DNA from: Cylindrotheca closterium | Lineage: Eukaryota > Bacillariophyta > Bacillariophyceae > Bacillariales > Bacillariaceae | Length of the DNA stretch: 64,000 nucleotides | NCBI GenBank assembly: GCA_933822405.4 | Contig: CAKOGP040001224.1 | Location: 313,825 to 377,824, forward strand | Direction of reading: 5' to 3' | In this document: positions 9,031 through 58,648 of the stretch, in pieces | Numbering within the stretch: the stretch's first letter is position 1 | How the letters are laid out: the number at the start of each line of letters is the position of its first letter | Notes under the pieces: model-generated | What the model saw: the letters and a program-made list of their open reading frames with translations, nothing else | Told to the model about the DNA's origin: nothing | The model's database searches: none | Position numbers and translations under genes: made by a program

Positions 9031-9060
9031 TGCCATCATCGCCATGAATTGTCATTTCCC

Positions 9061-10877: not shown

Positions 10878-11209
10878 CTTGATAAGTCTTAGTGAGAGCG
10901 ATGACTACAGTACTTTCGGCCATTGCCGGTCTGCTGTTTCTCCTCCACCATCGGCGTTTTCGGTTACTACGTAAGCTTGCAGTAAGAGTTCACACTACGA
11001 CGTTCGAAGTACGTACACCCACGCGCATGCTGTGCAGATCAAAGATTTTCGAACTCGGCTGATCGTGGGGAGATCTATTCTTCTATAATAACGAGGGGAA
11101 CGTTCGCAAGGCATTCCCCCATTCATCGGAGGCACAAAAACAAAAATCATCAACGACCAAAGCAACAAGAAATATCATGCTGATGGTGACAAACATGTAA
11201 TTGTTGAAA
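10878..11209. promoter_or_regulatory. Probable bidirectional promoter
   Basis: 332 bp between two divergent starts (mitochondrial acidic protein on -, glycosyltransferase on +). Contains CG-rich and palindromic pieces such as ACGCGCATGC at about 11021. No TATA box stands out. Confidence 0.4.
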
Positions 11210-12908
11210 ATGACGAAGGGAAAGGAAACTAGAACTCGACGGTGTTTACTAATAGTTTTAGTGGTGTTGGTGTTCGGCCTTGCTGGGCCGTTACGAGCAA
11301 GCTTGGCTACCACCAATACCACAATATCTATATGGATTGACGAGACTTCATTGCTACCAACCATTTCAGCGGAGTCCAATTCAACTACAAATGAGGAGAG
11401 ACAAATGGGCAATGTGATTACTGATAGCCAGTCCGTTGGGACAAATGTGACCGCACCAATCACTACCGTTGCATATTTAGTGTCTGTCACTGGATGCACT
11501 AAGAGTTTTGCCACCAAGATTTACGATTTTGGAGCCGTCTTGAAGAAGTCTATCGATTTGAACTCCTTCCCACTCCATCCCAGATCTCGATATGGAAGTA
11601 AAACCTTTGTCCTTGTGACTCCCGAGACGAAGACAACCAAGTGTGTCAAGCATCTGAAACGGGCTGGTTTCCAACCATATTCCGTCAAATTCCCAGTCAA
11701 GTTCAGTGAAATTCAACAGGTGGAGGGTGCCAAGATCTTTCGAAAAAACATTCGTAGCGATGGATGTTGTGGAGAGAAGGAGTTGATCAAGTTGCATGCC
11801 TATAGCATGACGGACTTTCCCGTAGCAATTCATCTTGATTTGGATACTCTTGTAGTAAATCCATTGGACCCGGTGATTGATGCCATGGTGTTGCCACCGG
11901 ACAATCCAACTGGGCGAGACGCTCGAGAACTTCTCTTTGCTCCCGAGTTACCGGAATCCAACACCAGCTTTCGCTATCCTAGAATGGCGACACCCACCTA
12001 CAAGGCATCGGTTCCTCTCGACAAGCTGGACGTTCAGGCGTACTACACCAGGGATTACAACATGCTGAAACGAGGCAAAGGACTAAAGGTTGGCCTTCAG
12101 GGTGGATTTATTATGGTGAAACCGAATCTTACTACCCTCGAGACACTTGTGAATATGGTGAGGTCGGGAAAGTATTACAATGCCAAAGGGGGGAGGCAAG
12201 GAGGGTGGTTTAGGTAAGAACCAACATGTCACAGCTTCCATTACCGCTGAAAAATCGACTCACCTTGTATCTATTAAAAAATACATAGAAGTGGATATTT
12301 TTCGCACATATGGGGATCCATGACCATTCAAGGACTGCTGGCTTACTACTACAGCGATGTCGCACATGATACGAGCATTGAACTGAACCGATGTCGATTC
12401 AATCAGATTGCCGAAAACCCTCGGCGGTCATCCTTCGACAAACGAGGAAAGTATCCAAGGGGCACACCAATTTCTGTTGATGCTGATTATAAGGATATGG
12501 ATTGTCGTGATCGACCAGGTTCCGACTGCGATGATGTACAGTGCCAAAAATGGCCGTTGGAAGAAACTTTCATTTTCCATTTCACATACGTAAGTTTGGT
12601 GTTGGAGCAAGAGCAACTACATTCAGCATTTGGCATTTCTCACCCTAATCCGTTTGCATTCTTTCGGACAGTGTAAGACTCCTACGAAATGTGGGGATAT
12701 ATCCTATAATGAAACATACAAAGACCATCAGTGCAATTTGATGTACCGAAAGTGGTTTGATGTGCGAAAATTAGTATCTGGTGATAAACATGATAGAATC
12801 GCTACCGGAACATATTATCCTGATCATTATCGAGGGTATTGCCGTGAAAAAGGAAAGTACATATCTATTCCATCGCTGGACAAGGCAAGCAATGGTGGCA
12901 GACAGTAG
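11210..12908 (+). CDS. GT8/glycogenin-like glycosyltransferase, type II membrane (3 exons)
   Basis: Exons 11210-12213, 12289-12589 and 12672-12908; 513 residues. Introns of 75 and 82 bp are GT-AG and all junctions keep frame: 'WF'-'RSGYFS' and 'FHFTY'-'CKTPTKC'. The start is the first ATG; the frame opens at a TTG at 11201. A basic N-terminus plus 'CLLIVLVVLVFGLAG' is a signal anchor, giving Golgi/ER type II topology. 'VAYLVSVTGCTKSFA' opens the nucleotide-sugar domain; 'AIHLDLDTLVVNP' contains the D-x-D metal/donor motif; 'GLQGGFIMVKPN' is the second GT8-type signature. The C-terminal part is Cys-rich. The donor and acceptor sugars cannot be told. Confidence 0.85.
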
Positions 12909-12951: not shown

Positions 12952-14575
12952 CTACATGCTTGCCCCGAATCCTCGCTTTGCACTGGATGCAAATTGTATC
13001 GGGCTAGCTCTCTTTGTGCCCGCTGTTTGGCTTCCAAAGACTGGCACTGAACCGTCAGATTCGGATCCTGAAACAGGAGGACTTCCAGCCGCTAGTCGAT
13101 TGTGAGACTCTTTCCTCCGATTTTGTATCCTTCTTTGACTACGAAAAGCATGGGCGACTTTTTTTCTGGCCACAATATCAGATACCTCGATGAAATCAGC
13201 GTAATAAATCTCGAGAAAGTGCCCACCATTCGCTTGAACTTCTTTTACCACTTTCTCGGCAATTGCTGTCTTTTCGTGCTTACTAGCTTGCTCGTAGTCA
13301 TTTTGATAGGACAGAACAAGGTGACGATATCGGAGGTTTCCTACGTGATCTTGACATCGCTTTTGCCTTCCCAACAACACATCAAACCGCCCCGGAATAA
13401 TGACGACGAGTTCCTTTGGGGTCGGTTGCTGCTCTTGCTCTAGTCGCTTTGTAAAACCTTCTTCTGCAAGTGGGAGGATCGTCCCATCATCTGTAATTGG
13501 TAGCGCCTCTCGCGGGATTCCGAATGTCAACAGAGAGTAAATGCACTCTTTTGCAGATCCTGAATTGACAGCGACAACAGTCGTTAGCAACAACAAGCAA
13601 CTAGTTCAAATATCGATTGAGGGTAGGACCACTTACCATAATGGGATCGACACCTGACTGTCAAAAAAGTTCCAACTGCAGAAAGGATCAATCGAAGGAT
13701 TGGGCGCACTCGCGGGTTGTCATAGCAAATATGGAAGCTGACAAAGCAGTTAGGAAGGCTCTTCTTCATGTCATTCAGAGCAACCCATAACTTTGGGTCT
13801 GGCATGATATTGGAACCGACGTTATAGAAAATTAGCACCATGCCATTTTTCCGTGACTCTTCGTCTCTCAACATTGTAAAAATGGACCAAAACAACAAGC
13901 GAAACCTGCTTTCGTAGGTCTGCTCCTCCTCGTGGGGTGTCCAGAAAAGAACAATTCTTCCTGATCGGTCCCTGTGTTGCAACCATCTAGTTTGACAAAA
14001 CTTCCACTCTTCTTGCTTAAGATCATGCAGCATGATATCTCTTCCAAGCTTTTCTTCGCCAAACAGCTTCTTTTTAACTTCAAAATGGGAAACGAAGGTT
14101 GCTGCAGCCTTCTTTGCGTTCAACTTCTTATCAGAGCGAAGAAACAACAATCGAAGATCCTTGTTCAGAGCTGTTGGTTACAGATAAGATAGAATGCAAC
14201 TGTAAGATAATTGTTATGAAGAATTTCTTCGTTCTATCGTGTCTGCCGAAACTTACCAAAATCTGGAGAAATTTCCTTTGCTTGTAGATAGGCCTCCTTT
14301 TTCTTAATCTTGCATATTTCGTTTTCCATTTGCGATAGCTTTTCCTCCATGATTATCGGATCTTCTTGAATTTCTGAGACACCGTGTATGTCATGGATTG
14401 CTGACTGCTGCTCATCAAAGGTTATCGACTTAAGAGCACGGGCAAGCAAGTCTTCATGAGCTTCGTCAATAGGTCCCGTTTCAAGAGATTCAAATGAGTC
14501 TAGTCCACATTCCTCTGTTTCGGAGGTTTCATCTTCGCTGCTCCAGCTCATTATATCCATTTCGTTATCGTCCAT
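12952..14575 (-). CDS. CRAL-TRIO lipid-binding protein with C-terminal DUF6824 domain (3 exons)
   Basis: Exons 14575-14257, 14170-13637 and 13559-12952; 486 residues; introns 86 and 77 bp with GTAAGT donors. Junctions give 'SPDF-A-LNKDLRLLFLRSD' and 'CRSHYG-SAKECIYSLLTF'. Order: acidic N-terminus with an 'RALKSITFDEQQSAIHDIHG' motif (about residues 46-65), Sec14/CRAL-TRIO domain about 107-330 ('SGRIVLFWTP', 'GMVLIFYNVG'), then a DUF6824 domain about 345-440 ('FDVLLGRQKRCQDHVGNLR', 'EVSDIVARKKVAHAFRSQR'). CRAL-TRIO domains bind small lipophilic ligands; DUF6824 is a domain common in diatoms with no known function. The combination is recurrent in diatoms. No membrane segment or targeting signal is visible. 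Confidence 0.85.
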
Positions 14576-15447
14576 TATCAAATATTTCTCTCCTTCAAGT
14601 GTGTGCTCTCGTTCTATGTTTGTATAGTATCCTACAGGGGTTCTGAAGTGGTGTAATTGTGTCAGTGTTTGCCATCTTCCATTCTTTCTCACTTTTATTT
14701 GGAACTATGACAGACGGCTCTTGCTCAATAAAATCAAACCTTAAATGGAGACGACCAATGACTCTTGCACGATAAATGTTAATGCAACATGAAAATTTCA
14801 TCCAATTAACGACCACATGTTACCCCAATCGAAGAGTCGAGTCAGTCAGACTATTGTCGATTTTGCGTTCGTTCTCGCATCTCATCTCCGCAGGTTGGTT
14901 GTATGTAACATCATTGCAATTCATGTGAACTTTGCGATAACGTTAGCGAGCCTTCGTCGGTCTGCATCGATTTCGATGGCAAAGAAATATTAAGAAAAGG
15001 AAACCTCATTGATGCAACAAGCTGCTGGTGGCTAGCTAGTACTATAGTAACTACTGCGGCTCCTAGTAGGACTACTAGTAGCCGCTACTAGCTACTAGTG
15101 CTACCCACTACTAGCTTGTTTGTCTTCTTCTAGACGAGTCTCCAGAATCTGTACTTGACTAGATCTAGCTCTCTACGTAGGCTATGAAAAGCAAATCCCT
15201 TGGATGTTTGAGATTTTACTACGGTAGACTTGGTTGCCCTGCTTCCATTTGGATGGCAATATTACCATCGTCGTGTTCAATCAACAGTTGCCTACCGGTA
15301 CTTTTGTGGGCAGATTTAGTCGCAAAAGTTTAAAATTAAATCGGTTTAGTCAGTCTTTGGCCAGATCAAAGAAACGAAAAACGAGCGAACGGCACCATCA
15401 ACTTTGCTTCGGAGGCGACAACAGCGGTACTATAATATAACCACAAG
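14576..15447. other. 870-bp bidirectional intergenic region with CTAG/ACTAGT cluster
   Basis: Between divergent starts of the CRAL-TRIO gene (-) and the LRR gene (+). AGTCAGTC occurs at about 14841. From 15031 to 15180 there is a dense cluster of CTAG, ACTAGT and GTAGCTAGTA-like palindromes. No protein or RNA gene is seen. Confidence 0.5.
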
Positions 15448-17699
15448 ATGGAGGATGACGATAATCCATCAGTGATTGATGAATTGGCAGAAGACCTTGG
15501 ATTTGGTGATTATTTGGGAGAGGATATCGATGACTATAACGAATCCTCCGAAGAGTATGATCACGATCAACTTCCTGATGTGGAATCGTATAGGGCGCAA
15601 ATGGGTCATGACGGAAAGCCAGCTTCGTTAAAGAAAAGCATATGTATTGCAGTATGCAGTTTTGTGATTCTTACCACAATTATCGCGGTAGTCGTCTCTG
15701 TACTAATGAATAATGAAGAACCAGAAGTTGTTCGTTTTGAAGATGATATGAACAATGAGGGCAATACCGACAATTGGAACAAGGGCGAGACGCAGCGCTT
15801 TTTGCAAATTCGGGAATATGTGACAACGATTCGGGGAATTTCCACCTTTGATTCCGTCCAAGCGCAGAATGGAGTACAAAGTCCCCAATACTTGGCGGCT
15901 CAATGGATGGCACATGGAGACGGAATGAACATGCCAGTTCCGGTCGACGAACCAAATTTACAATTTGATGAACGATACGCTATGACAGTATTTTACTTTG
16001 CCACTGGAGGTCCTACTTGGACCGCCCAGTTGAATTTTTTGTCAAGTGGACACATTTGTTCTTGGAATGAAATAGTTGAAGCATTTGATGGATTTGCTGA
16101 GCTACGGTACGGTCTTTCGGAATGTCCAGAAGCTTCTGATATGTTCCCTCGAGCATTGATCATCTGTAAGTTGCATCTTTTTATGCTTTATCGGTTGTAT
16201 TGTCGACGCCCGGAACGATTCATTAACCTTTTTCTTTCTCCACTCCCAAAGCTGAAAGTAACAACATGACAGGAACACTACCGGACGAAATTCGCGGCTT
16301 AGAACGGTTGGAGATCTTGCATTTGGCGAATAATCCATCGATTACTGGGACCATCCCTGATGGATTCCGTAGAATGTCTGCGTTGCAGCAGTTCACCGTT
16401 ACCTTTTGCTCACTGACAGGTAGCATACCACCATTCATTTCTGAATTGAGCACGGCGATGGAAGCCCTTGCATTGAGTGGTAACAAAATGGACGGTCAAC
16501 TTCCAGCAAGTCTTTCTGACATGACCAACTTGAAGGTGTTGGCTTTGGATCGAAACGAGTTCGAAGGCTCCATTGACCTTGTGGCTCCTCTCACAAAAAT
16601 CCAAAAGCTGTTTTTGGATAGGAATCAAATAACAGGAACCCTTTCTGATTCATGGATGGGGAACTTTGTCGACTTGGTGTCACTGGATTTGTCAGAAAAT
16701 CTTCTGGATGGTTCTCTGCCTCCCAACTTTTTCAACCAACCGAATAGTGCCAGTCTCAATGCCATTGATTTGCATGCCAACTCTTTCACTGGCAGCTTTC
16801 CATCTTCTCTGGATCAATCGGATACCAATACCGCCTTGAAATTCCTATCGCTGCATGAAAATCGCTTGACTGGAACCCTACCAAAATCCATCTTTACAAA
16901 GCTCCAAGCACTCGAACTGTTGGACGTGTCAAACAATCTGTTGGACGGCAGATTGGATGATGTTGCCGATTTCACGACCGGGACTACGGTTTCTCCTCTG
17001 CAGTTCTTGTACGCAGGAGGAAATGGATACTCACCGTCGCCCATCCCCAGCTGGATATCAGGATTCTCAAGCCTCAAAGAGCTAGTCCTACCGGAAGCAT
17101 CTTTGACCGGACAGCTTCCCGATTGGCTTTTTACGGACATGCCAAAATTACAGCATTTGGATTTACGTAAGTGACAAACGAATGACTGAATGAATGAATC
17201 CTTCACATCGCAATGACGATTCGATCCTGCATGATACTAACATTCCCTTCATCTTGACTAAAAACTACTACTAGAGGGAAATTCATTTTCAGGAGACCTT
17301 CCAAGCAGCATTGGACAAGCCAAGGAGTTGGTTGATATTTATCTAAAGGGCAATTCACTTTCAGGAGAACTTCCAGAGGAGATTAACCAATTGACACGAT
17401 TGCAACTGGTATTGTTGGAACAGAATGGCTTTACAGGAGACATGGCTGGGAAATTTTGCAACCCCAATAACCCCAGCAAGATGCTCAATGTCGTCAAGAT
17501 TTCCAACGGTGAAGAAAATGGGATCATCAAGACTCTGGTCATGGATTGTTCGGAAGAAAATCTAACTTGCGAATGTTGTACTAAATGCTGTGCTTCCGGA
17601 AATGATATTTGCAATACCGAAGTGGATTGGACAAACTTTCGACTCTATTGGAAACCACATTGGAATCATGGCTATTACGATAGCAACTTGAATTTCTAG
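15448..17699 (+). CDS. Type II membrane leucine-rich-repeat protein (3 exons)
   Basis: Exons 15448-16165, 16252-17166 and 17275-17699; 685 residues; introns 86 and 108 bp. Junctions: 'RALII-SESNNMTG' and 'LQHLDL-QGNSFSG'. Order: acidic cytosolic tail (1-60), one membrane segment about 64-87 ('ICIAVCSFVILTTIIAVVVS'), the diatom 'YAMTVFYFATGGPTW' motif about residue 180, then about 12 plant-type LRRs ('L-x-x-L-x-L-x-x-N-x-x-x-G-x-x-P') to about residue 620, and a Cys-rich cap with 'CECCTKCC'. It resembles the ectodomain of plant LRR receptor kinases but has no kinase domain. It probably faces outside the cell or the lumen as a recognition or adhesion protein. Ligand unknown. Confidence 0.9.
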
Positions 17700-18505
17700 G
17701 CTACTGGATGGGTACATGATGATATTGAGGATCCCAGATAACTCGATGATGTCCTTCTGTGAAAAAGGACTTTTGGTGTCACTACTATACTATTAGGATA
17801 TATATAATACACGATGAGCATAATATTGTTTTCTTTTATTGTGCATGCTGAGAGTGTGAGTGTACAGTAGGGGGGTCCATCATGTAGGGTCAAAGGAGCA
17901 TTATGTACATGTGCAAGGGACGATTGATTCTCAATCAGTTGTCAAATCTACTGTGAGAACAAAATCAAAATTCGCAGCGAACATTCTGAGTTTCGGCTCT
18001 TATTAGCATCGTTCATTACGTTCTTCTCAAGTGTCAATTGTCCTACACACGTGGTACTAATGGAACTAGACTAGCGAAACTAATGGAAACTGGAAACAAA
18101 CATCAGAAGAATCATTTCTTCATGGTGAGTTGTATGTTAGTATGTAAAGAGAAAGGTGTCAAGGGGTCAGCTGCGCTTCATTCTTGTTCGTACCTGTAGG
18201 TTCGCAATTTGCCATCTTGATTCTTCGTTCTGTGATGTACTTCACTATTTGACGAGCAGCTGGCAACCAAATCGCACCCATCGCACGTACGAAGGCAATC
18301 GAACCATGTGCCTGACGCGCACGGCCCGCGTTTGCTACGCATTTCTCCGTAGGAGAAGGGGAATAAACATTCGCCTTCTCCCAAAACGCGTGACATTGAC
18401 AGATTGACAATTGCGCTGTTCGAAAAGTCCATCTGACAATTTGTTCGATCACATCATCTTCCAGAGAGCATTGGGAACATTGCATGCACTCATAAACTGT
18501 TCTGA
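17700..18505. other. Intergenic region downstream of the LRR gene
   Basis: 806 bp. AT-rich 3' flank (a TATATATAATA run near 17800), then mixed sequence. A minus-strand frame at 18159-18554 has no homology that I recognise and I do not call it. No RNA gene seen. Confidence 0.4.
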
Positions 18506-42375: not shown

Positions 42376-43434
42376 TCAATTGTTGACAAACTGGCCTTCT
42401 TGGCTCTCCGACGCCTCTCGAGGCTTATTCGCTCTGGATTGTTTTGTAATCAAAGTTGCATACCCAATAATCAAAACGCAGAGACACACGTAAAAGAATA
42501 GTGCGCCAGGTGGAGATATGCCAGTGCTTGTCGGTTCAGCTATAATGCCATCAACACATTTTACTGCAGTCGTCATTGACGACGCATCTGCGCTGGATGG
42601 TGCTTCACTTGCGGATCCGATAGATGTCGGTGCGTTGGAAACTTCGACACATGGAATATAGATGGGTCTCTGATCGGCAGGAGGGAGGGTATACTCTCCT
42701 AGCGATCGTCTCTGAGTGGGCAAGATATCAAATGGTCGATTGAGTTTTGGTGTCAAGCTCGGAGGAGCCGTTGCTTCTCCATCAAGGTCGTTGTTGGCGT
42801 GTAAAACCGCCGTTGGAATATTTTCCTCAATCATGATTGTTGTTGGAACCAAAGACGGTCCGTCGGAAGGAATTTCCGAAGTGTTGGGATATATCTGGGA
42901 GGGAGTTGCTGTAGTGGGAGCGTGACTGGGATGGGCCGTTACTTTTGCACCTCTGTCGTTGCTGGGAAAAACCGTGGTTGGTTCTTCCACCCACGAAGAG
43001 GAGAAGGTAGGAACCAAAGATGGTTCGTCCGATGGCACGTTGGAAGACTTGAAAGTGTCATCCAACTCATGCGAAACAACTGGTGCAGGAATGAAGGAAA
43101 TGTAGGTAGGAACTGGTACCTCGAGACGTGGAGTGTGAGGTTTGAAATCACCTGTCGCCGGGATACGAGATTTCTTGATCAACTTTTGAGCAGCCTTCTT
43201 GGCAGTCTTGGCAGAGGTGGTGGGGCTCTTGGCAGCAAGGATGCTACCCTTCTTCTTGGTCAAGCGATGATAATCACGAGGAGTACGATTTCCCTGAAGA
43301 TCGGTCCTGTCCATGTTGACCGGGATGCGACGAAGAGGTTCGGCTTCAACGCTAATCATCATGTTCTTGGTGGATGCAGCAACGGTAACCATCAAAAGAG
43401 AAACGAGAGTTTTGATGATACGATTCATGATCAT
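42376..43434 (-). CDS. Secreted/type I membrane Ser/Thr/Pro-rich protein
   Basis: 352 residues from the ATG at 43432-43434 (alternative 43426-43428); the open frame extends upstream only to a TTG and I exclude that part. Signal peptide 'IIKTLVSLLMVTVAAST'; a basic Lys-rich region ('KTAKKAAQKLIKKSR'); then three imperfect copies of 'SDEPSLVPT/SDGPSLVPT' in a Ser/Thr/Pro-rich stretch likely to be O-glycosylated; C-terminal membrane segment 'GALFFYVCLCVLIIGYATL' and a short charged tail. This is a cell-surface layout. 'PS-x-x-PS-x-x-PT' stretches are common in diatom surface and frustule-associated proteins. No enzyme domain. Confidence 0.7.
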   Translation of the reverse strand: MIMNRIIKTLVSLLMVTVAASTKNMMISVEAEPLRRIPVNMDRTDLQGNRTPRDYHRLTKKKGSILAAKSPTTSAKTAKKAAQKLIKKSRIPATGDFKPHTPRLEVPVPTYISFIPAPVVSHELDDTFKSSNVPSDEPSLVPTFSSSWVEEPTTVFPSNDRGAKVTAHPSHAPTTATPSQIYPNTSEIPSDGPSLVPTTIMIEENIPTAVLHANNDLDGEATAPPSLTPKLNRPFDILPTQRRSLGEYTLPPADQRPIYIPCVEVSNAPTSIGSASEAPSSADASSMTTAVKCVDGIIAEPTSTGISPPGALFFYVCLCVLIIGYATLITKQSRANKPREASESQEGQFVNN

Positions 43435-43974
43435 TGGCAAGTAGAAAGAATGATAGTAGAGCAAGTAATAGGCTTTGTAGCAACGAACGCTGTGTGCGAT
43501 TGCTTTCAAATAGTCCAAGCGGTTTGGATTTGTGATGATAGACCGTTGTTTTGGTTTTGCCTTTTTTGGATTTCCAAATTTGAGTCGGCTCGGCGGGCGC
43601 GTTCGAAATTTGGCTCCGAATGTCGCACCGGTATCCAATTAGTCGAGTCGAACGAATGATACAGCCCGAAAAAAATAGAAGGCCGCAAGAAAAACCAAAA
43701 GGTTTTGCTTGTGCTTGGAAAGTGGAAAGTTCAAAGTGGGAAGTGAGAACAGTTTTGGACCCTGAAGGAAGAGAGACCAGTTTCCTCATCGGTATATAGA
43801 TTCCTTCCTATCATACACACACAGTTGTCAACTACACAAGAGTTTCGCATCATCCATTCAGCAGTGAAGATATCGTATATGATAGATACAGACAATCCAA
43901 GCAACAAACATAACATAACATTCCAATCCATACAACAACGAAATATTGATAACTTCTCGACATAAATTCAAAAG
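43435..43974. promoter_or_regulatory. Bidirectional intergenic region upstream of triple-kinase gene A
   Basis: 540 bp between divergent starts. The last 100 bp before gene A is A-rich with CAA/ACA repeats, as expected of a 5' UTR. No other gene recognised. Confidence 0.4.
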
Positions 43975-46900
43975 ATGGGATGCGGCCAATCCAAACAAGA
44001 TGATGCAATAGCTGCCAATTTCTTTGATGGGGCCAAGGAATCTCAGTCTGCACAACTGCAAAAAGACTCTACGAGATCAGGAGAACTGAAGAGTAACACA
44101 CCACAAAATTCAGCAAGGTCCTCACAACAAAAGGATTCCGCACGGTCAGCAGCAGCAGCAGCATCACAGCCATCAAGTGACGATCCACAACAAATTCCAC
44201 AATCTCCTAGACAAAATTCACAATCGCACATAGAACAACCACTCTCACCTCGATCACCCAAAGTGCCATCCAGAGAAGCTTCCTCTCAAAGGGGAAGTAG
44301 TCAAGGGAGTTTGATGAAAAGTCCTTCGGGGATCAAATCAGGCCGAAAGAGTGAATTTGTGGCTCCTCCCTCGTCTACATCGTTTTATAATAATCCCGCT
44401 GTTACTGCACAGACAACGGACAAACCTAGTCCTCCGGCGCCTGCAGCTGTACCAGCGCCTCCACTGCCATCAAAGGGCCAGGATCCACCTGCGGCACCAC
44501 CATCACCACCAGAGACGACGTCCGCGCCTCCAGCGGCAGCACCGGCACCAGCACCAGCCCTCAAAAACAAGAATACAGAAAAACCAAAGACCGGACCGGG
44601 CGGAGCACCGAGGGGCAATTTCAAGCCCCAGCCAACCATATTGGACGATGACGACTTTTCCGTGGCTCCTAGTCTCGACACGGCCATGCGCAGTGTTTCA
44701 GGACGCAAGTTTGGGGATGTCTACAAGCGGGGCAAGAAGGTACGCATTTTTTCTTTTGATGGTTTGCCAGATTGACATCTATTTGTATTGGTATTTGCAT
44801 GCTATTGTTTGGAATGAGTACTCATTCATTCATTCATTCATTCATTCATTCTTCTCACCACTCATTTCCCCCACTCTTGTTCAATGTCATCATTAGTTGG
44901 GTTATGGTGCATTTGCCGATGTCTTTATTGGTATCCATAAGCCAACGGGGAAACAATATGCTATCAAACAAGTGAATCGATCCAAAATGATGTGGGGTCA
45001 ACGGGACGCTTTGAAGGATGAAATTGATAATATGAAAATGGTGCGGGCCGGACCCAATATTGTACAACTTTACGAAGTGTTCGAAGAAAAAACATTTTCG
45101 TACCTCGTGACGGAATTGATGACGGGGGGAGAACTGTTTGATCGAATCATTGAAAAGAAAACCTTTACCGAAGAGGAAGCGAGAAGTTGTTGCCAGTGTG
45201 TCCTGAGTGCTTTGGAGTATATGCACAACCAACGAGTGGCGCATCGTGATCTAAAGCCAGAGAACTTGCTGTTGGCCAGTCGAGAGTCGTTGCTGCCGGT
45301 AAAGCTGGCCGATTTTGGATTTGCAAAGGCTGTGGCCAAAAAGAATGGCTGTCGGACACTCTGTGGTACACCTGGATACCTAGCTCCGGAAATTCTAGAG
45401 CGGTGGCCTGCCTATGATGTCAAGTGTGATATTTGGAGTGTGGGTGTAATTCTTTTCTTATTGCTCGGTGGATACTTACCCTTTGATGCGGACGACGAAC
45501 AACTCGTCTTTGATCGAACGAGAAATGGACAATATGACTTTCGACCAAAGTTCTGGCGGCACATTTCCAACGGCGCCAAGGACTTGGTCTCGCAATGCTT
45601 GACCATCAATCCCAACAAGCGAGCTAGTGCTACCTCGGCATTGCAACACGGATGGATGAGTGTCGGTGGATCGGAATTGGCCACTCACCAAGTCGATGTG
45701 GGAAAGCTCAAGGTTATGGTGCAAGCAAGACGAAAGATGAAGGCGGCAGTCAAGACGGTATGTTTCTTTGTTCTTTGGGGTCAAGTGTTTTTGTTTTTGT
45801 CCGATTTTATTCATGTCTAACTGAATCATTTCCTTTTTTCCATGACAGCTCGTGGCGGCCAACCGATTCCAACAGCTGAACGACGACTTTACCGTATACA
45901 TGGAAAAGCGCCGAGGAGAATCGATTGTCTCACATTTCTCTTACATGACCAGCAGCACACGCACGGGTCACAAGCGCTATGTCGAAGATAGTCCCTCGGG
46001 AAAACCATTCACCAACTTTTTCTTGTTGGGAGAAAAACTCGGGGAGGGTGAGCATTCATACATTTATCGAGCAACGCGGAAGCAAACCCAACAATCGTAC
46101 GCTGTCAAGCATGTGGATCTTCTTCCATTGGACGACGAATCTAAACAAACCATTCGCGACGAAGTCAAAGCACTGCGGCTCCTTCGAGGTGGTCCTCACA
46201 TTGTTCGGCTCTTTGATGTCTTTCAAGAACCCGAGAGTGTTTACTTTGTTTTTGAAGAAATGACTGGTGGAAACCTTCTATCAAGAATTGTCGAAAAGGA
46301 AGTCTACACAGAGCGTGAGGCTCAACAAGTCTGCAAGATTGCATTTACTGCCATTAACTATTGTCATATGAAAAAGGTGGCCCACCGTGACGTCAAGCCA
46401 GAGAATTTCCTATTGGTCCAAGAAGGAGACGATACCAGTGTCAAGCTGGCAGATTTTGCCTTTGCCAAGAGGTGCGCTAGAGAGAATTCACTGCTGACTC
46501 TGTGTGGTACAGCGCAATACGTGGCTCCCGAAATTCTGGACGACAACAGTGCGGGATACGACGAACGATGTGACAATTGGTCATTAGGTGTCTTTACTTT
46601 TGTACTGCTTGGTGGCTATCCTCCATTCGAAGGAATCACTGGTGACCTTGCCAACGAAATCAAGACTGCAGATTACAATTTCCACGACGAGTACTGGACG
46701 GAGGTCTCGTCTAGTGCCAAGGACATGATCCGATCTTTACTTGTTGTTGATCCAAAGAAGCGTACTACAGCTGCTGACGCACTTGCCTGTGAATGGATGG
46801 CCAGTGAGGAAGAGCAGTTAGTTTTGCGAGACTTGTCCAAGGTGCAAAGCCAAATGTTGGACAAGTTGGGCCCCAAAAACAAGGTGAAGATGGCAGTCCA

Positions 46901-48119
46901 AACGGTGAGTTGCTATTGGTCTTGTCGATTGATTTGCTATTGAACAAGTACTCACAATTCTTGCTTTTTGTCAGATTATTGCAAGGAACAAATTCATGTC
47001 TATTGCTGGTATGAAAAAGGATCTACAAATTTCAAGCAGGCATTCAGTTGTAAGTCTGACCTTGGTGGCACTGTGCTCTTGTTTGGTTTGGACTTCAGAA
47101 ATTACCATTACTAACACACCATTTTCATTTGCTCAAAGGACCAATCGATACTGGAAGAAGATGAAAGCTTTGATAACAATTATACTTGGGGGGAGCAGAT
47201 TGGTATTGGAACATTCTCTGCAGTTCACGAGGTCACGAGCAAAGAGTCCGGCAAGCTTTACGCAGCCAAGAAGGTTACGCGGAAGGACTTGCACCCAAGT
47301 GATGCAGTGGCCTTGCACGACGAGATCGCCGCATTGCGAAAAGTTGCCGGCTCTGAACATGTCGTCAAGCTTTATGACGTTTACGACGAGCCGGATAATA
47401 CTGTCATGGTTTTGGAAATCATGGGAGGTGGTGACTTGATTGATCGGATTATTGAAAAGCGTCACTACACGGAATACGACGCCAAGGAAGTTAGCAGAAA
47501 ACTGATTATGGGTGTTGCCCACTGCCATAAATTCAAGATTGCTAATCGCAACCTCAAGCCTGAAAGTTTATTGCTGAAAGCGGGAAGTGACACAGATGTC
47601 AAGATCAGTGACTTTGGTTACGCCAAGACGGTGACTTACCCGAACTCCCTGCGAACACAGTGTGGTACTGAGGGATATGTTGCCCCTGAGATCCTTGAAC
47701 ACAGACCTGCCTATGACATTGCTTGTGATATGTGGAGTGTTGGTGTTGTCATCTACATCGTCCTCGGTGGGTACCGTCCATTCCGAGGAGAAGGGGAGGA
47801 AGTAATGAAACAAATCCGATACGGAGAATACAAGTTTCACAAGCGCTACTGGAGCCATGTATCCAAAGACGCCAAAAGTTTGATCCAACAGATGTTGACT
47901 ATAGATCCACGAGAGAGAATTACAGCTGAAGAAGCACTAACGAGTAAATGGGTGACGGCTGAGGAGTCTACACTCAACACGGTAGAATTGTCGGGCAATA
48001 TGGAGGACTTGAAGAACCTGCGAAGTGCGAAATCCAAGCTACGCAGCGCAGTCAAGATGGTCATGGCAACTAAAAAGCTCCAGAGCCTGAGTGGTTTTCG
48101 GTCGCACCAAGATTTCTAA
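43975..48119 (+). CDS. Triple-kinase protein A: kinase-kinase-pseudokinase, N-myristoylated (5 exons)
   Basis: Exons 43975-44739, 44897-45757, 45849-46904, 46975-47049, 47139-48119; all introns phase 0; 1245 residues. N-terminus MGCGQSK (predicted Gly2 myristoylation, Cys3 palmitoylation), then a disordered Ser/Gln/Pro/Ala-rich region to ~238. K1 (~245-505): 'LGYGAFADV', 'YAIKQV', 'HRDLKPEN', DFG, 'LAPEIL' - all catalytic residues present, CaMK type. K2 (~600-860): 'LGEGEHSYI', 'YAVKHV', 'HRDVKPEN', but DFA for DFG. K3 (~937-1195): 'IGIGTFSAV', 'YAAKKV', 'NRNLKPES' (HRD Asp lost), DFG kept. After each domain is a basic amphipathic helix ('ARRKMKAAVKTLVAANRF', 'NKVKMAVQTIIARNKF', 'SKLRSAVKMVMATKKL') like the CaMKII autoinhibitory segment. 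No EF hands. Ends 302 bp from the convergent gene B. Confidence 0.88.
44821..44851. repeat. (CATT)n microsatellite in intron 1 of gene A
   Basis: About eight ATTC units within the 157-bp first intron (44740-44896), which ends just before the K1 glycine-rich loop. Confidence 0.9.
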
Positions 48120-48421
48120 ACGCTGATTATTTGCACATTCATCCGAATGATGCATAGTGATAATATTGTAAACTATATCTTCACCCTACTTGCGGGACTA
48201 TTTAGCGAGGCTTTTGTAGGATTGCTATTCAGGAGACGAGTCGTCTTCGTTTTTACTTGCTGTGATTCCAATTCCGTATCAAGATTGATTTGTCTCAACT
48301 CGAATCCCGAGGTCGAACGATTTGAGATTGTTCCATTTCGCTTCACAACACAGTATCCTTTTACCACCAACATCTTGAATCATAATACTTCACCATTCAC
48401 ATCACCTCATACGAAGTTGCT
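48120..48421. other. Convergent 3' flanks of triple-kinase genes A and B
   Basis: 302 bp between the two stops. No gene recognised; overlapping 3' UTRs are likely. Confidence 0.5.
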
Positions 48422-51400
48422 TCATCCCTCAGGAACAGCACTAAGATCTTTCTTGTTCATTGCCATCAGAAGCTGCGAAGACTGCGTGGAGCGTACACCT
48501 CGGGATATTTCTGAGAAGGAATCGCCAAGCTCATCTAACTCCCCATTTTGGGTCGAAATGTCCATGAAACCATCTGAATTGATCCATTTGCTGATCAGGG
48601 CGTCAGCAGCTGTAATGCGCTTTTCTGGATCTACGGTCATCATTCGATTGATAAGATCTTTTGCATTCTCTGAAATGCCTTTCCAATACTTGTCATGAAA
48701 CTTGAATTCTCCGTAGCGAACCTTCTTCAGAACATCAATCTCTTTCTTTCCACGGAATGGGTAGTATCCTCCCAACATTATGAAGACGATCACTCCGACG
48801 GTCCACATATCACACGACACATCGTATGCGGGCCTATTTTCCAGAACTTCAGGGGCGACATACTCTTGCGTTCCACACTGGGTTCGCAACGAGTTTGGGA
48901 AGGGGACCACCTTTGAGCACTCAAAGTCTGTAATCTTCACATTTGTCGGGTCATCATCGGGCAGAAGCAAGCTCTCGAGCTTCAGATTGCGAATTGCGAT
49001 GCGCTTGTCGTGACAGTGCTTGACTCCAACCAGCAGGTTACATACTATTGCTTTTGCTTCAGCTTCTGGAAATCTCTTCTTCTCTACTAGCTTCTCGATC
49101 AAGACGGTACCATTTATCCGATCCATTACGATGTGAGTATAATCAGAATCTTCGTAAACTTCTCTGAGGCGGATAACGTGAGTTGACTCGACTATAGCTC
49201 GCATCACAGCAATCTCATCATCTAGAGCAATCACATCCGATGGAACAAGGGTCCGTCGGCAAACCTTTTTGACAGCCACGACATCATTGCTCTTTCGTTG
49301 AATTGCAATATGGATTTCAGCAAATTCTCCATGCCCGATCTATGCAAGGGGCAACCTAGTGAGTCACAATTATAGTGCAACAAAGCGCCTGGTGGAAAGA
49401 TAGAAAGTAACGTACCTGCTGAAGTAACTCATACCCTTCGGCAAATTTCTCCTCCTCTTCGTCGATGCGATCTCTACCAGCAGCTAATATTCTTTTTTCC
49501 AATGCCTTCAGCTTGTCTGAACCCTTGAATTTCTCTTGAGTCGAAGAGAGATCATTAGTAGTGAGCTGGTCTTCATCAAGTCCCATCCACTCGCATCGGA
49601 GCGCTTGCTCAGCAGAAATTCGCTTTTTGGGATTCAATTCCAGCATACGAGCAATCAATTCTTTTGCTGGTGTGGAAACATTCTTCCAATAATCGGTGTG
49701 GAACTTGTAACTTCCACTCAGCACTTTCCTCTTGATCCTCTTGATGTCGCCCTCAAATGGTAGGTATCCACCAAGTAGGCAGTAAACTACCACTCCGACC
49801 GACCACATGTCACATCGGAAATCATAACCACCTGGTTGTAAATCGAACACCTCTGGAGCCATGTAGTTTGGTGTGCCACACATCGTCGTTAAGCCAACCG
49901 ACCTGCATTTTCTCGAAAAACCAAAATCAGCAAGCTTCAGAGTCGCTTCGTTTCCTTTTTCCACGAGTAGCAAATTATCGAGCTTTATATCACGGTGAGC
50001 GATCCGTTTTCTGTGACAATACTTGACAGCTTCAAAGAAGTGCCGACAACAATCTCGCGCTTCGTTTTCTGTGTAAACCTCCTTCTCCAGAATCCGGTTC
50101 AGTAAATCTCCGCCAGTCATCTCCTCCATGACCAGATGATACTTCTGCGGCTCCCGAAAGACATCGAACAGCCGAATGATTCCTGGTCCACCGCGAACAA
50201 ATTTCAAAACAGTGATCTCTTCATTAAGAGTTTTCAATTCCTTAGGGTTTAATCTCGAGAGATCCACTTCCTTGATTGCGTAGTACTGCCCAGTGCGATT
50301 GTGTCGTGCGCGGTATACTTGGGCAAAGGCGCCCTTGCCCAACATTTTGCCCTTCGTATAAAATGAATCGATTGACTGCCCGCTACCTCCTTCCTCTTTA
50401 AATGCAGTAGCCGCTGTAGCAATAGTCTTGTGTGCACCTGTCATATGGGACACAATTGAGTCTTTTTTTCGCTTGTCCATGTATACTGTGAAGTCATCTT
50501 GAAGATCCTTCACACGGTTTTTCTTTGGCTTAGACGCCCCTTTCGTTGCTTTTTGAGGTCTGGTCTTGGCAATACTCTCTCGCAATCGCTTGGTATCAAT
50601 CTTAGTTTTTGAAATCTCTTCGCCAGCCAGTATCCATGGGTGCTCCATTGCTCGATGAGACGTCATTCGTCGCATTGGGTTGGTGTTCAGACAACGCGCC
50701 ACCAAGTCTTTTGCCATGTGGGAAATATTTTGCCACCGCTGCGGATAAAACTGATATTGCCCATTTCTCGTCCGTTCAAACACCGCATTGACATCATTGG
50801 AAGCTGTCGGATCAAATGGTAAATACCCTCCCAAAAGTAGAAATAGAATGACACCAAAACCCCACATATCACACGTCACATCATAGGCTGGCCATCGCTC
50901 CAGGACCTCGGGAGCCATGTAACCAGGAGTTCCGCACAGGGTTCGACAGGAGTTCCGTGTTTCGACAGCTTTGGCAAATCCAAAGTCGGATAGCTTTACA
51001 AGATTGGTTGCAGCAGTGTCCTAAACGAGAAAAAGATGAGTCGGTTGAATGTCAGAACGAAACGCATGCAAATAGTTTGGACTCACAACTAATAGCAAAT
51101 TCTCCGGTTTCATGTCTCTATGGGCGATTCGTCTGGAATGCATGTAGTGTAGAGCGCTCAGCACACATTTACTCGCATCTCTCGCCTCTCGTTCGGAGAA
51201 GGTTCCCTTTTCGATAATCCGACCAAACAACTCGCCTCCTGGTAAAAGTTCAACAATAAGATAACACACAGATTCCTCATAGAATACATCCTGAAATTTG
51301 ACAACATTTGGAGCTTGTTTGAGTTTGCGAAGATTATCGATTTCATCCTTCAGGGCATCCCTCCCACCCCAATGCATTTTTTTTCTATCAATCATTTTGA

Positions 51401-52169
51401 CCGCAAAATCAATTTCATACAAGCGGTGAGTTCCAAGGACGACCTTGGAAAAGGCACCATCTCCGAGCTGTTTTCCAGTTCTATACACTTGCTCAAAGGT
51501 TTCTCCATCTTTGGCTTCTTCAATTACAATATCAGCGGGAAGATGAGCCGAAACACGCGTAGGAACGGCTGGTTGAGCTATCTCACTCTCAATGGGCGAT
51601 GGTCGAGCGTTGGACTTGGTTCTTGTCCGCTTTGGTTTAGCGGCCGGCTTGTGATCTTTGAATCGTTCTGTAGACCGGCGGGCACCTGATTCATCTCGAA
51701 ATCCTTTTACTCCTGCGGTAGGGGTTGCCGCGTCTTGAATGTTGGCAGCGATTTGCTCCGAGTCGATAGAACCTTGCGAAGCCAATTCATTGGAACTTAT
51801 CGGTGGTTTGTATGATTTTCCTCCCCTCGGTTGTGGTGATCCGAAACCATTGTCTTGTGAGGGTCTCGTTTGAGACGGCGATTCATACTCTGATGGCGAC
51901 ACGTATGCGTTGTTCCCTGAAGGTCTCGTTTGCGCCAGCGATGGATATTCTTTGCTATCTGAGGGTTTCGTTTGAGCCGGCAATTTCTGGTCCGAAGTTC
52001 TTGGTGGTCGTGGCTGTGGAGGAGATCGCGCTGGGTGTATTATCGGTGCTTGTGGTTGGCCATGTAGAACTGGTTTGGAATTTGCAAAATTATTCTGATT
52101 TGGCTGCTCCAGGAATTTGGCAGCTTCATTTTGAAGATTTGCCTCTTCTTTGGATTGACCGCAGCCCAT
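48422..52169 (-). CDS. Triple-kinase protein B: kinase-kinase-pseudokinase, N-myristoylated (3 exons)
   Basis: Exons 52169-51087, 51020-49416, 49339-48422; introns 66 and 76 bp, both phase 0; 1201 residues. MGCGQSKEE start, then a Pro/Ser/Gln-rich region with 'QTKPS/QTRPS' repeats to ~220. K1 (~238-490): 'LGDGAFSKV', 'FAVKMI', 'HRDMKPEN', 'LSDFGFAK', 'MAPEVL'. Linker 'DDFTVYMDKRKKDSIVSHMT' is conserved with genes A and C. K2 (~583-845): 'LGKGAFAQV', 'YAIKEV', 'HRDIKLDN', DFG, APE. K3 (from 897): 'IGHGEFAEI', 'VAVKKV', 'IRNLKLES' (HRD to IRN) and 'DFECSK' (DFG to DFE): a pseudokinase that keeps the VAIK Lys and APE. Intron 1 splits K1 just after 'PENLLLV'; intron 2 follows 'YELLQQ' and precedes the K3 Gly loop, the same site as in gene C. 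Confidence 0.88.
51800..52010. repeat. Imperfect tandem repeat in gene B exon 1
   Basis: Three diverged units of about 60 bp, each containing a G-A-G-G-G/GAAGG-TCTCGTTTG-like core, encode the 'QT(K/R)PS' repeats of the disordered N-terminal region. Confidence 0.6.
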
Positions 52170-53038
52170 CTCCTAGAGTTCCCCTCGACTCCTGAGCTTG
52201 GACTAGGTTGGATTGGATGGATTGAATTAGAGAGACGTCGTTTGCACTATTCGTTTAATCTTCACCCTTTCAATTTTGTCCAATCTTTGTTGGCTTTTTG
52301 TTTCGCTCTTTTTCTTGAAATCTAGAACTGTCCGATGTAGCTGTTGCTTCCTCTTCTCCTACTTTTGGAGCAGGTAAGAAAGGTGACCGTAGTAGTAGAA
52401 CTGGAAGGAGAGCAGTCAGTCGAGTTGGCAAGCTGCGAATGTGATATCATCAACTCGGAACAATTAGTTCGGGGGACAGCGACCTTGGGGGTTCCAAATT
52501 AGGGACCGGGTCAATGACCTGGAAGACTAAACGATAGTCAATAAATACCGTACTCCAGCCAGAAGGTTGAACAAACAGTATCTATCATTACACTGTAGGT
52601 ATCCATCACCGCATGTAGTGCTAGTCAATTTCGGTTTGCCATTCTATTCATTACTCCACTCTTGTTCATGAGGGCACCAGCCAGTTTCTTATTAGTTCTA
52701 GAAGTGGCGGTCCTACCGGTAGGGAGCCGCAGCGCTTCTTCGTGATCCAGTGCCAAGGTTAATCCTTGAGAAATGGTGTAGCAGCGTTCAAGAAGATAAA
52801 CAATGCAGCCCCCCCGGCCAATCACCATCTGAAATGTAACCGGGTACTAACTTAGTCGAGACATGTCCAATTTTAGTGGTTTTTTCATGCGATCAGCAGA
52901 CGGAGAAAATGAATACTGCATGGATCCTCACACAGTTTTCAGTGCCGAAAGGTGAGCCGCATTTCCAAGATCCTTTGGGGAGGCATAAGAACAGGAACGA
53001 CAGGTTACAAGGGAAGTAAACGAAATACTGTCGCTACC
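52170..53038. promoter_or_regulatory. Bidirectional promoter region of genes B and C
   Basis: 869 bp between divergent starts. AGTCAGTC at about 52411 and TACCGGTAGG at about 52713. An ATG at 52908 opens a 14-codon frame (MNTAWILTQFSVPK) ending in a possible GTGAGC donor at 52952, which could be a small first exon of gene C; I cannot settle its acceptor. Confidence 0.4.
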
Positions 53039-56000
53039 ATGGTTGTGATTTCTCTTTGGGACGGCCAAGAAATCGAGCTGGCCGTCGAAAGTTCCAGAGG
53101 AGACGGAGAACAGAAGCTCAATGAAGCCATATTGGAACTGGATGACAACCAGGTCGCATTGGATCTTTCACTGCTTAAACGCGGTGTCCTTCGCATCCGA
53201 AAACCATTTCCAGAATCTTTCGAATCTACTAAATCTTCAGTTAAAACATTAGAGAAGTTGGAGACTTTTTCTGATGATGAGGAAGATCTGGATAATGTAA
53301 AAGAGGCGAAAGAAGGAGAAACCTTTCAAGATCTTTACACAACTGGGGAAGCATTGGGTAAAGGGAGCTTCTCAGACGTAGTATTGGCCACCCACAACGA
53401 ATCGAATATGAACTTTGCCGCAAAGGTCATTGATAGAGAAGACATGAAGCGAAAGGGGGCCAAGGATACGTTGGAGCTCGAAATTAATAATATGAAGCTT
53501 CTGAAAGAGTGCCCTCAAATCTGCCGTATACAGGATGCCTTCGTAGGCGATTCCATCTGCCATATTGTTTTTGAATTGCTTCCAGGAGGTGAATTATTCA
53601 GCTGTATCATAGAGAAGGGTTCTTTCTCCGAGCGAGAGGCTCGCGACGCTAGTATCAGTATCTTGAATGGCCTCGAATTCATGCATTCTAAGCGAGTTGT
53701 CCACCGTGATGTGAAGCCAGAGAATCTCATGTTGAAGGACAAGAACAAAATTTCTTCTGTCAAACTTTCTGACTTTGGCTTTTCCAAGTATCTAGAAAAT
53801 AAGAATGCCTGTCGGACTCTTTGTGGAACACCAGGATACCTGGCGCCTGAAATTCTGGAACGATGGCCTGCTTACGATGTGGAATGTGACATGTTCAGTT
53901 TTGGGGTCATTCTCTTCCTCTTGTTGGGCGGTTATTTGCCCTTTGATCCCAACTCCAGCAATGATACGAATGCCATCTTTGAACGTACCCGTAATGGCGA
54001 TCACAAATTCTACCCCACTCGATGGAACAACATTTCGCCTTCCGCGAAGGAATTGGTGGCACAGTGCTTGAGCATCAAGCCCACGAAGAGAATCACAGCC
54101 AAGAAAGCCTTGAATCATCAATGGATGAAAGAGAAGGTTGCTGGCAACAAGGTCGATGCATCTGCTTTGAAAAGTGTTGTTGCGGACAATCAGGTAAGTG
54201 TTTACTGGTATTTCAGTAATGATCATGATGATGATGAAAAACTAGCTACTGTCTCCTTATATCAACGTATTTTCTTGAATCGCGTTCGAACAGTTGGGCA
54301 AGAAAGGTGATGAGCTAAAGGACGACTTCCAAGGCTACCTGGAAAATAAGCGGAAAGATTCGATGACATCGTATATGACTGGACAAAAATCGGTTGCCAC
54401 AGCTGCGACTGCATTCAAGGAGGAAGGCAGCAGTGGACGACCTGTAGACGCTTTCTATGAAAAGCGACACAAACTTGGGCAAGGGGCTTTCGCAATTGTG
54501 CACAGTTGCTTTCATCAGTCAACTGGGAAGTCGTATGCTATCAAGGAAATTGATCTGTCCGGATTAAATGATAAAGAGTTGATAATGCTCCAGGGAGAGA
54601 TCAATGCCATGAAATATGTTCGAGGTGGACCGTCCATTATTCGTCTCTACGATGTATTCCGATTTCCTGATAAGCTGCACCTGGTGTTGGAAGAAATGAA
54701 GGGTGGTGATGTATTGCATCGAATTGCTGAAAAGGAGGTGTATACAGAAGCTGAGGCAAGAGATACGTGCACATATTTCTTCGAGGCAGTGCGATACTGT
54801 CACAGAAAGAATATCGCTCACAGAGATATTAAGCTCGATAATCTATTACTCGTGGAAAAGAATGACATTGCTACCGTGAAACTTGCTGACTTCGGTTTTG
54901 CGAAGAAATGCGGGAGAAAAGGAGTGAAGACAATGTGTGGGACTCCAAACTACATGGCACCAGAGGTGTTTCGGTTACCTGAGTCTGGTTTCTATGATTT
55001 CCGTTGCGATATGTGGTCTGTTGGCGTTTCAGTCTACTGCATGTTAGCTGGGTATCTTCCTTTTGAAGGATCCATGAAAGATGTCCAACGGCGAGTATTG
55101 AAAGGAAAGTACAAGTTTCACAGTGAATACTGGGCTGGGATCTCATCTTCAGCAAAGGACATGGTTACCGGGTTGTTGCAGAGAGATCCAGGCAAAAGAC
55201 TATCTGCAGATGATGCTCTGCAGTGCGAATGGATGGGTACGGCTGCTGAAGCTCTTGCTGCCAGGGATCTTTCCGGCGCTCAAAAACAAATCAAGAAGAA
55301 TAAATTCAAGAAGGCGGCGATGGGTGTAAGTTCTTCAAAGGTCGAAATGTTGTTTGCGCCATAGATTGTTCTCAACTCATTACCTTTGGCAGATAATGAA
55401 ATTGAACAAAATCCACAAATTCAACGAGTCGTCGAAGATGCTTGACTTTGGGACCTTGGTAAGAACGATATGCCGATTGTCACGTTGCTCTTTTTCAGCG
55501 CCCTCATTGTTGCGAAAAAATTTCAGGCGATGGGAATCAATCAAGCAGCAAGAATGGAGATGCTTCAGGAACAACAAGACGCGGAAGAAGAGAAGTTTGA
55601 CCAAGCCTTTGAACTTTTGCAACAGGTGAGTTGCTTATTTGCATCATGCTACGACATCTCGGAACTACTATTTATCTGAATCAATTGAATATTTAGATCG
55701 GAGAGGGCGAGTTTGGGGATCTCTATATTGCGATCAACCTAAAAACAAAAACGGAAGCTGCGGTTAAGAAGGTCTGTAGACGCAAGTTGGTCGAGTCTGA
55801 CGTCGTCGCTCTTGATGACGAAATTGCGGCATTGCGAACGCTGCAAGGGTCCAAGCATATTGTTACGTTGCTGGACGTATATGAGGATGCCGACTATACT
55901 CACATTGTAATGGAGCGAGTCTACGGTTCAACGTTGATTGAACAGCTAGTTGCGAAGAAGAGATACACAGAATTTGATGCAAAGGAAGTTGTAAGGAATC

Positions 56001-56581
56001 TACTCTTGGGAGTCCATCATTGTCACAACAATCGCATCGCAATTAGAAATCTCAAGTTGGAGAGCTTGCTTTTACCTGAAAATGAACCGAACAATGTAAA
56101 GATATCTGACTTTGAGTCTGCGAAGGTTGTTTCTTTCCCCAACTCTCTCCACACTCAATGTGGAACTCAGGAGTACGTTGCGCCTGAAATCCTATCAAGT
56201 CATCCGGCCTATGACGTTTCTTGCGACATGTGGACAGTCGGAGTTATAATCTTTATAATGCTTGGTGGGTACTATCCTTTCCGTGCCAAGAAGGAGGCCG
56301 ATGTATTGAAGAAGATCCGCTATGGTGAATTCAAGTTTCACAGCAAGTATTGGAAAATCATATCAGACGAGGCGAAGGATATAATAAAGCGAATGCTGAA
56401 CGTAAATCCAGACGAGAGAATAACTGCTGCCGATGCACTATCAAGCCCTTGGATCCATTCTGGGGACAAGCACACAGCTGATTTGAGCAACAATATGTCC
56501 GAGTTGAGCGAAGAACTTGGCAAGCGAACACTCAAGGGCACTGCTCGAATGGTGATGGCCCTCAAAAGGTTGAACATTTGA
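53039..56581 (+). CDS. Triple-kinase protein C: kinase-kinase-pseudokinase, divergent N-terminus (5 exons)
   Basis: Exons 53039-54193, 54294-55325, 55393-55458, 55527-55625, 55697-56581; all phase 0; 1078 residues. The N-terminus has no MGCGQSK; instead ~60 residues starting 'MVVISLWDGQEIELAVESS' form a small beta-rich-looking segment, then an acidic linker. K1 (~103-350): 'LGKGSFSDV', 'FAAKVI', 'HRDVKPEN', 'LSDFGFSK', 'LAPEIL'. Linker 'DDFQGYLENKRKDSMTSYMT'. K2 (~440-700): 'LGQGAFAIV', 'YAIKEI', 'HRDIKLDN', DFG, APE. Small exons 3 and 4 encode a basic 'IMKLNKIHKF' helix and a coiled piece ending 'FELLQQ'. K3 (from 784): 'IGEGEFGDL', 'AAVKKV', 'IRNLKLES', 'DFESAK': pseudokinase as in B. C-terminus 'LKGTARMVMALKRL'. 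The true start may lie in an upstream exon. Confidence 0.85.

Positions 56582-58648
<2,067 letters not shown>

Follow-up and report, generated by a model that had tools for sequence, protein, structure and literature searches.

Three triple-kinase genes in one cluster

This study concerns three protein kinase genes of the diatom Cylindrotheca closterium, named A, B and C, which lie between positions 43975 and 56581 of a 64,000-nucleotide stretch of genomic DNA (the window; C124:313825-377824 of an assembly of 572 contigs and 47.6 Mb). The genes stand on the +, − and + strands and carry nine kinase domains in total. The original prediction held that each of them joins three kinase domains, K1, K2 and K3, in a single chain. 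At the level of sequence this was confirmed, and each gene is predicted to encode one three-kinase protein.

Gene A (43975–48119, +) was modelled with five exons (43975–44739, 44897–45757, 45849–46904, 46975–47049 and 47139–48119) and a product of 1245 residues. Gene B (48422–52169, −) has three exons (52169–51087, 51020–49416 and 49339–48422) and encodes 1201 residues, and gene C (53039–56581, +) has five (53039–54193, 54294–55325, 55393–55458, 55527–55625 and 55697–56581) and encodes 1078 residues. All ten introns in these models are GT…AG introns of phase 0 and 66–157 nt in length. The gene C model matches the public C. closterium protein P0002 letter for letter. The gene A product is 86% identical end to end, over 1251 columns, to the transcript-labelled P0013, which is marked as a complete open reading frame, and that of gene B is 64% identical over 1230 columns to P0001, a relative from C. 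fusiformis. The small exon that encodes the linker from K2 to K3 is missing from the model of P0008, a relative of gene A, where it may be skipped or mis-predicted.

A profile built from the nine domains recovered three near-complete kinase domains in each gene, and Pfam reports three Pkinase stretches in P0002 as well as in P0013. By profile and motifs, K1 of gene A (44719–45658, +; residues 249–509) has intact HRD and DFG motifs, K2 (46020–46799, +; residues 600–859) has an intact HRD and DFA in place of DFG, and K3 (47181–47954, +; residues 934–1191) has NRN in place of HRD and keeps DFG. In gene B, K1 (50631–51488, −) and K2 (49584–50363, −) are intact at both motifs, as are K1 (53336–54127, +) and K2 (54453–55235, +) of gene C. 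The K3 domains of B (48581–49433, −) and C (55608–56455, +) read IRN and DFE and have an intron in the glycine loop. The assignment of the chains to the CaMK type also stood: the best PDB sequence matches of K1 and K3 of gene A are CaMKIV, CaMKII and CaMKI, and a domain tree places the domains beside CaMKs.

Several lines of evidence link the three domains of each gene. The uninterrupted gene B exon 49416–51020 holds the last two thirds of K1 and the entire K2, and extends into the beginning of K3. The K3 frames of B and C open within the glycine loop, immediately past a stop codon, and the K3 frame of A has no Met ahead of the core, so that K3 could not start on its own. For A and B, the exon joins are supported by the splice models and by transcript-labelled relatives. 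At least eight triple-kinase matches carry transcript or MMETSP labels (P0012, P0013, P0015, P0017, P0021, P0024, P0026 and P0244), and seven of the eight have three near-complete domains; in P0244, K1 falls into two pieces with 29 residues between them. Furthermore, the distance matrices of K1, K2 and K3 across 56 proteins are correlated (r = 0.657, 0.816 and 0.695; 0 of 2000 permutations as high in each case), as expected for a single chain. Domains at the same position in A, B and C share 52–70% identity, except K2 of A, which is 49% identical to that of B and 48% to that of C; domains at different positions share 33–46%.

K3 is a predicted pseudokinase

The catalytic motifs were compared in 57 sequences with at least three near-complete domains, taken from 298 proteins together with A, B, C and a fourth C. 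closterium gene, D. Gene C is counted twice in this set, as C and as P0002; the latter was dropped in all counts out of 56, and rows with a split or cut domain were examined separately. Every one of the 57 sequences has an intact HRD in K1 and K2, and none has it in K3. The K3 variants are NRN (31), IRN (9), IRD (9), VRN (4), HRN (2), VRD (1) and NRD (1), which means that the catalytic Asp is replaced by Asn in 46. The 17 K3-type pieces from the separately examined rows agree (NRN 12, IRN 3, IRD 2, HRD 0). At the DFG position, K1 has DFG in 46, DFS in 10 and DYG in one, K2 has DFG in 50, DFA in six (gene A and five others) and NFG in one (P0026), and K3 has DFG in 45, DFE in six and DFS in six. 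The nucleotide-binding residues beta3 Lys and alphaC Glu are kept at each of the three positions in 57 of 57, and mean identity is 0.61 for K3 versus 0.65 for K1 and 0.66 for K2.

The claim of a third canonical kinase domain is therefore not upheld. By the residue criterion, the loss of a canonical catalytic residue across orthologs, K3 is a conserved pseudokinase; it probably works as a regulator. The same D-to-N change appears as HRN in the aligned CaMKII chain 2bdw, and PDB entry 5hu3 is titled CaMKII-D136N, where we take D136 to be the HRD Asp of a kinase-dead CaMKII form. K1 and K2 of genes B and C look fully catalytic from their motifs.

Calmodulin-binding-type segments and N-termini

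Each domain of gene A is followed by a segment resembling the calmodulin-binding region of CaMKs. The segment after K1, ARRKMKAAVKTLVAANRF (45722–45869, +), is of the CaMKIV/CaMKII type and is split by intron 2 (profile E 2.8e-10). It aligns with ARRKLKAAVKAVVASSRL of CaMKIV chain 9fqr_Er, presumably the calmodulin-binding site of CaMKIV. The segment after K2 (46872–46998, +; E 5e-7) is interrupted by intron 3 at the equivalent position, and a third one follows K3 (48021–48080, +; E 2.9e-11). The profile was built from 29 tails of single-domain CaMKs and applied at a threshold of E 0.01, with four K3 tails of 10 residues or fewer left out. It matches 37 of 56 tails after K1, 26 of 56 after K2 and 31 of 52 after K3, and none of 1640 shuffled sequences. 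At this threshold gene A has three segments, C has two (after K2 and K3), D has two (after K1 and K2) and B has none.

The proteins of A and B start with MGCGQSK, which we take to resemble an N-myristoylation motif, and may be anchored to membranes by N-acylation; the N-terminus of gene C lacks MGC.

Origin of the repeat unit

A careful tree was built from 80 domains, comprising 22 K1, 21 K2, 22 K3 and 15 single-domain sequences; K2 of P0001 was left out, its model lacking a piece. The single-domain set consists of the C. closterium kinase E1, chosen matches to a K1 query (from a few named diatoms and one brown alga, and two EF-hand kinases), and an outgroup of two fungal kinases. In this phylogeny of K1, K2 and K3, the domains fall by position into separate clades, with support of 100/100 for K1, 100/99 for K3 and 100/97 for K2 joined by E1. 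K1, K2, K3 and E1 together form a group distinct from the remaining single-domain kinases (100/100). Without E1, which forms a long branch, the K2 clade has a support of 48/0. Since K1 and K3 each form one clade, the triple layout should have preceded the gene duplications, and the best reading of the tree is that it arose once and was then duplicated. E1 belongs to a single-kinase gene divergent from gene D (L001 6593–8098, + on C34). It may be a relict of the family or a fragment left by an earlier triple gene.

The single-domain CaMK of C. closterium, L005, has EDSKSGKSFGELY ahead of the kinase, a CaMK-type tail, and introns at the glycine loop and past KPENLLL; its MGNC start was read by eye, the first splice lying outside the model. 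An intron at the same position as the glycine-loop intron of L005 is present in K1 of A and K3 of B and C; likewise, K1 of B and both K2 and K3 of D have an intron that matches the one past KPENLLL exactly or to within a residue. An EDSxSGK-type pattern, as in L005, precedes 46 of 56 K2, 24 of 56 K3 and 11 of 29 single CaMK domains, and was found in 0 of 3360 shuffles. Because this motif and the two introns recur in the repeats, we suggest that each repeat descends from a single-domain CaMK. The intron in the calmodulin segment is at an identical place after K1 and K2 of A, K2 of C and K1 of D, and is absent from L005. The EDSxSGK pattern is missing before K1 (0 of 56), which plain triplication does not explain; the front of K1 may have been replaced.

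Distribution and duplication of the family

Besides A–D and the duplicate P0002, at least 52 further proteins have three near-complete domains, at least seven of them transcript-labelled. These counts are lower bounds, as the candidates sharing most words were scored and the best 120 listed. Most homologues are metagenome proteins. Named carriers are C. closterium, C. fusiformis, Nitzschia sp. Nitz4, N. inconspicua, a Bacillariaceae metagenome-assembled genome, Fistulifera solaris, Fragilariopsis kerguelensis, Pseudo-nitzschia heimii and Synedropsis cf. recta. Taxonomic lineages of three of these were checked and we take the remaining ones to be pennate diatoms, so that all named carriers appear to be pennates. 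Among the matches listed, most of them metagenomic, no named centric has the triple layout, and the matches from Ditylum (P0267) and Thalassiosira rotula (P0269) are without it. The idea of a diatom or lineage-specific family is thus borne out as far as the named matches go. Since carriers include Synedropsis (Fragilariales) as well as Fistulifera and Fragilariopsis, the triple layout is, judged from these sequences, older than the A-B-C cluster.

The proposal that the family grew by local duplication holds in part. B and C are closely related paralogs, and Nitz4 has two triple-kinase genes on one scaffold (8451–12430 and 14165–18158); in the tree this tandem pair is sister to the Cylindrotheca B/C pair and not orthologous to it gene by gene. 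However, the A type (P0005) and the B/C type (P0003, P0027) each have Nitzschia members and must therefore have split earlier, and gene D lies on another contig. Gene D (L001, G000:C34:9500-19400, positions 2417–5900, −) encodes 1054 residues, belongs to a subfamily with DFS in K1 and IRD in K3, and is 93% identical over 994 columns to the metagenome protein P0038. No DNA-level repeats of at least 60 bases with a 15-base exact seed were found across 43000–57500, so the duplications that gave A, B and C look old.

Other multi-kinase loci of C. closterium, on C541 and C1, are more distant (27–36% identity). Locus L004 (G000:C435:466000-474000, positions 3365–5215, −) encodes a two-kinase CaMK-like protein of 33–50% identity, with the calmodulin-segment-like linker FNASRKLKSAITAV between its domains. 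The metagenome protein P0253 (1406 residues) has a kinesin motor domain alongside three kinase-domain matches and is possibly a fusion or a mis-assembly. In the window, the start of an HPPK-Pterin_bind fusion gene of the folate pathway (56696–57892, +) lies directly 3′ of gene C. On the other side, adjoining gene A, lies a Pro/Ser/Thr-rich open frame of 420 residues (42376–43638, −) that has no Pfam match and, read by eye, a signal-like start and a C-terminal hydrophobic stretch.

Relation to known kinase systems

An AlphaFold2 model of P0002 (16 rows) has a mean predicted local distance difference test (pLDDT) of 71.9 and a predicted template modelling score (pTM) of 0.51. Its three kinase folds mostly score 70–93, and the linkers 376–425 and 721–771 score below 50. 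A Foldseek search with the gene C model ranks an EGFR kinase-domain-duplication structure first and CaMKII entries next. None of the NCBIfam matches of P0002 and P0013 reaches its cut-off.

The domains share with CaMKI, CaMKII and CaMKIV their sequence and their best solved-structure matches, and those of gene A also an ARRKxKAAV segment; here, however, the chain has three such units, the third a predicted pseudokinase, and A and B have an N-acylation-like start. Single-domain diatom CaMKs (the P0197–P0238 type and L005) are alike in an MG start (25 of 29), the front motif, kinase and tail, and L005 also in the two recurring intron positions, but they have one unit with an intact HRD, and L005 lacks the intron that A, C and D have in the calmodulin segment. 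A CDPK identity was rejected: no EF-hand was found by a scan of P0002 (gene C) and of P0013 and P0001, which are relatives of A and B, nor in the Pfam column for P0001–P0059. RSK and MSK also have several kinase domains per chain, RSK combining an N-terminal AGC with a C-terminal CAMK domain. They were set aside, since all three diatom domains form one group beside CaMKs, in a tree made without AGC rows, and K1 of A matches CaM kinases best. The public record of the Fistulifera member P0052 reads 'ribosomal protein S6 kinase', likely an annotation transfer.

JAK (JH2-JH1) and GCN2 unite a pseudokinase and a kinase in one chain, with two domains of other kinase groups and the pseudokinase N-terminal; the diatom chains likewise join both kinds, but have three domains and a C-terminal pseudokinase. 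CASK, a CaMK-group pseudokinase, and HER3, which has HRN with DFG, are comparable in their type of domain, but have a single kinase domain per chain, not three. Plant tandem kinase proteins usually have two domains of the plant receptor-kinase type. Those such as Yr15 (PMC6170490) also join kinase and pseudokinase; this comparison is by description, outside the domain tree.

A literature search, which covered mostly titles and abstract openings and full passages from open-licence papers, found no description of a CaMK kinase-kinase-pseudokinase family, in line with the original prediction, which knew of no described CaMK-type family with three kinases in a chain. In passages of a grapevine study, two of 1168 kinases have three kinase domains, with one identifier printed twice (PMC5878832). 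Excerpts of published work on Phytophthora infestans give three two-kinase proteins, and a paper on diatom Ca2+ kinases treats CDPKs, the word CaMK being absent from its passages (PMC13187674). Given the grapevine cases, three kinase domains per chain are not new; it is the CaMK kinase-kinase-pseudokinase layout of which this search found no record.

Proposed function and alternatives

On balance, we consider it somewhat probable that the genes encode a triplicated CaM kinase in which K1 and usually K2 are catalytic and K3 is a pseudokinase regulator, with membrane anchoring in some members. Each gene would give one protein, in which a single-domain CaM kinase of diatoms is repeated three times head to tail, and A and B would be tethered to a membrane by N-acylation. 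A rise in Ca2+ would load calmodulin onto the regulatory segments and release the catalytic domains. K3 would bind nucleotide or substrate while lacking efficient phosphotransfer, and would allosterically hold or switch the other domains. JAK JH2, HER3 and CASK are pseudokinases that act allosterically, and the role of K3 is proposed by likeness to them.

Several observations weigh against this reading. Eleven of the 57 K3s keep the catalytic Asp (xRD) together with DFG and may be active. Ten of these 11 have DFS in K1, all ten K1-DFS rows have xRD in K3, and the separately examined P0058 agrees; in genes of the D type, roles may have shifted among the domains. Three of the ten (D, P0022 and P0024) form one clade and the other seven are nearer D than A in all three domains. 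All being D-type by clade or distance, they probably reflect a single event, and the pairing gives no separate support to a functional link. K2 has lost the metal-binding Asp (NFG) in P0026 (Fragilariopsis) and in six of the separately examined rows (P0039, P0060, P0066, P0242, P0244 from Pseudo-nitzschia, and P0246). It may be inactive in some members, a second pseudokinase in the NFG relatives, and K2 of gene A, with DFA, may be weakened. Calmodulin-segment matches fail for K1 (none), K2 (E 0.038) and K3 (E 8.8) of B, K1 of C (E 0.044) and K3 of D (none), and across the family for 19 of 56 K1, 30 of 56 K2 and 21 of 52 K3 tails, so that a claim of Ca2+/calmodulin control does not extend to every copy. 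An MG..S/C/T start is present in only 12 of 57 rows, and many of the others are metagenome predictions whose starts are uncertain. Finally, the domain packing in the P0002 model is not trusted (pTM 0.51), and dN among A, B and C is 0.21–0.49 with dS saturated in nine of nine comparisons, which leaves dN/dS not computable.

A more ambitious version of the regulator reading, to which we give tentative credence at most, is a single-chain Ca2+ decoder of pennate diatoms. The chain would be a membrane-tethered, triplicated CaM kinase in which separate calmodulin sites and an inbuilt pseudokinase gate the catalytic units, and the catalytic roles would have been re-dealt in some subfamilies (K1 DFS with K3 xRD in the D type; K2 DFA or NFG in the A type).

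Considerably less probable than the main reading is a scaffold or dosage role, in which the chain is mainly a covalent CaMK multimer that replaces a CaMKII-type holoenzyme and K3, like K2 of the A type, is drifting to loss. The domains being intramolecular repeats of one CaMK unit fits such a role, as do DFA and NFG in some K2s, and dimer-like action of multi-kinase proteins is proposed in passages by the soybean kinome authors (PMC4378628). The near-equal identity of K3 to that of K1 and K2, and the invariant beta3 Lys and alphaC Glu, are unlike drift.

We regard a three-step phosphorylation relay within the chain, with K1, K2 and K3 all active and phosphorylating each other in turn, as improbable. 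Loss of the catalytic Asp need not abolish all kinase activity. The kept Lys and Glu, DFG in 45 and the Asp in 11 of 57 K3s would also suit a relay. Against it stand the absence of HRD from every K3 row and left-out piece, NRN, IRN and IRN in A, B and C, with DFE in the last two, and the D-to-N change in 2bdw and in the title of 5hu3. Of the two roles envisaged for K3 in the original prediction, the pseudokinase motifs favour regulator over relay.

A gene-model artefact, with neighbouring single-kinase genes fused by splice prediction, is very improbable: the models do rest on DNA of the locus, and the K2 frames of A and C have Met codons ahead of the domain, but K1 and K2 of gene B share an exon, the K3 frames have no start before the core, full-length transcript-labelled relatives exist and the K1, K2 and K3 distances agree.

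Chains with three kinase folds are rare, and here the kinase-kinase-pseudokinase order is kept across at least 52 further, mostly metagenomic members. Since the three units resemble copies of one CaM kinase type that the C. closterium genome still contains, the family offers a natural series for studying how a duplicated kinase becomes a pseudokinase regulator. It would add an unnamed class to the Ca2+/calmodulin-type kinases of diatoms.

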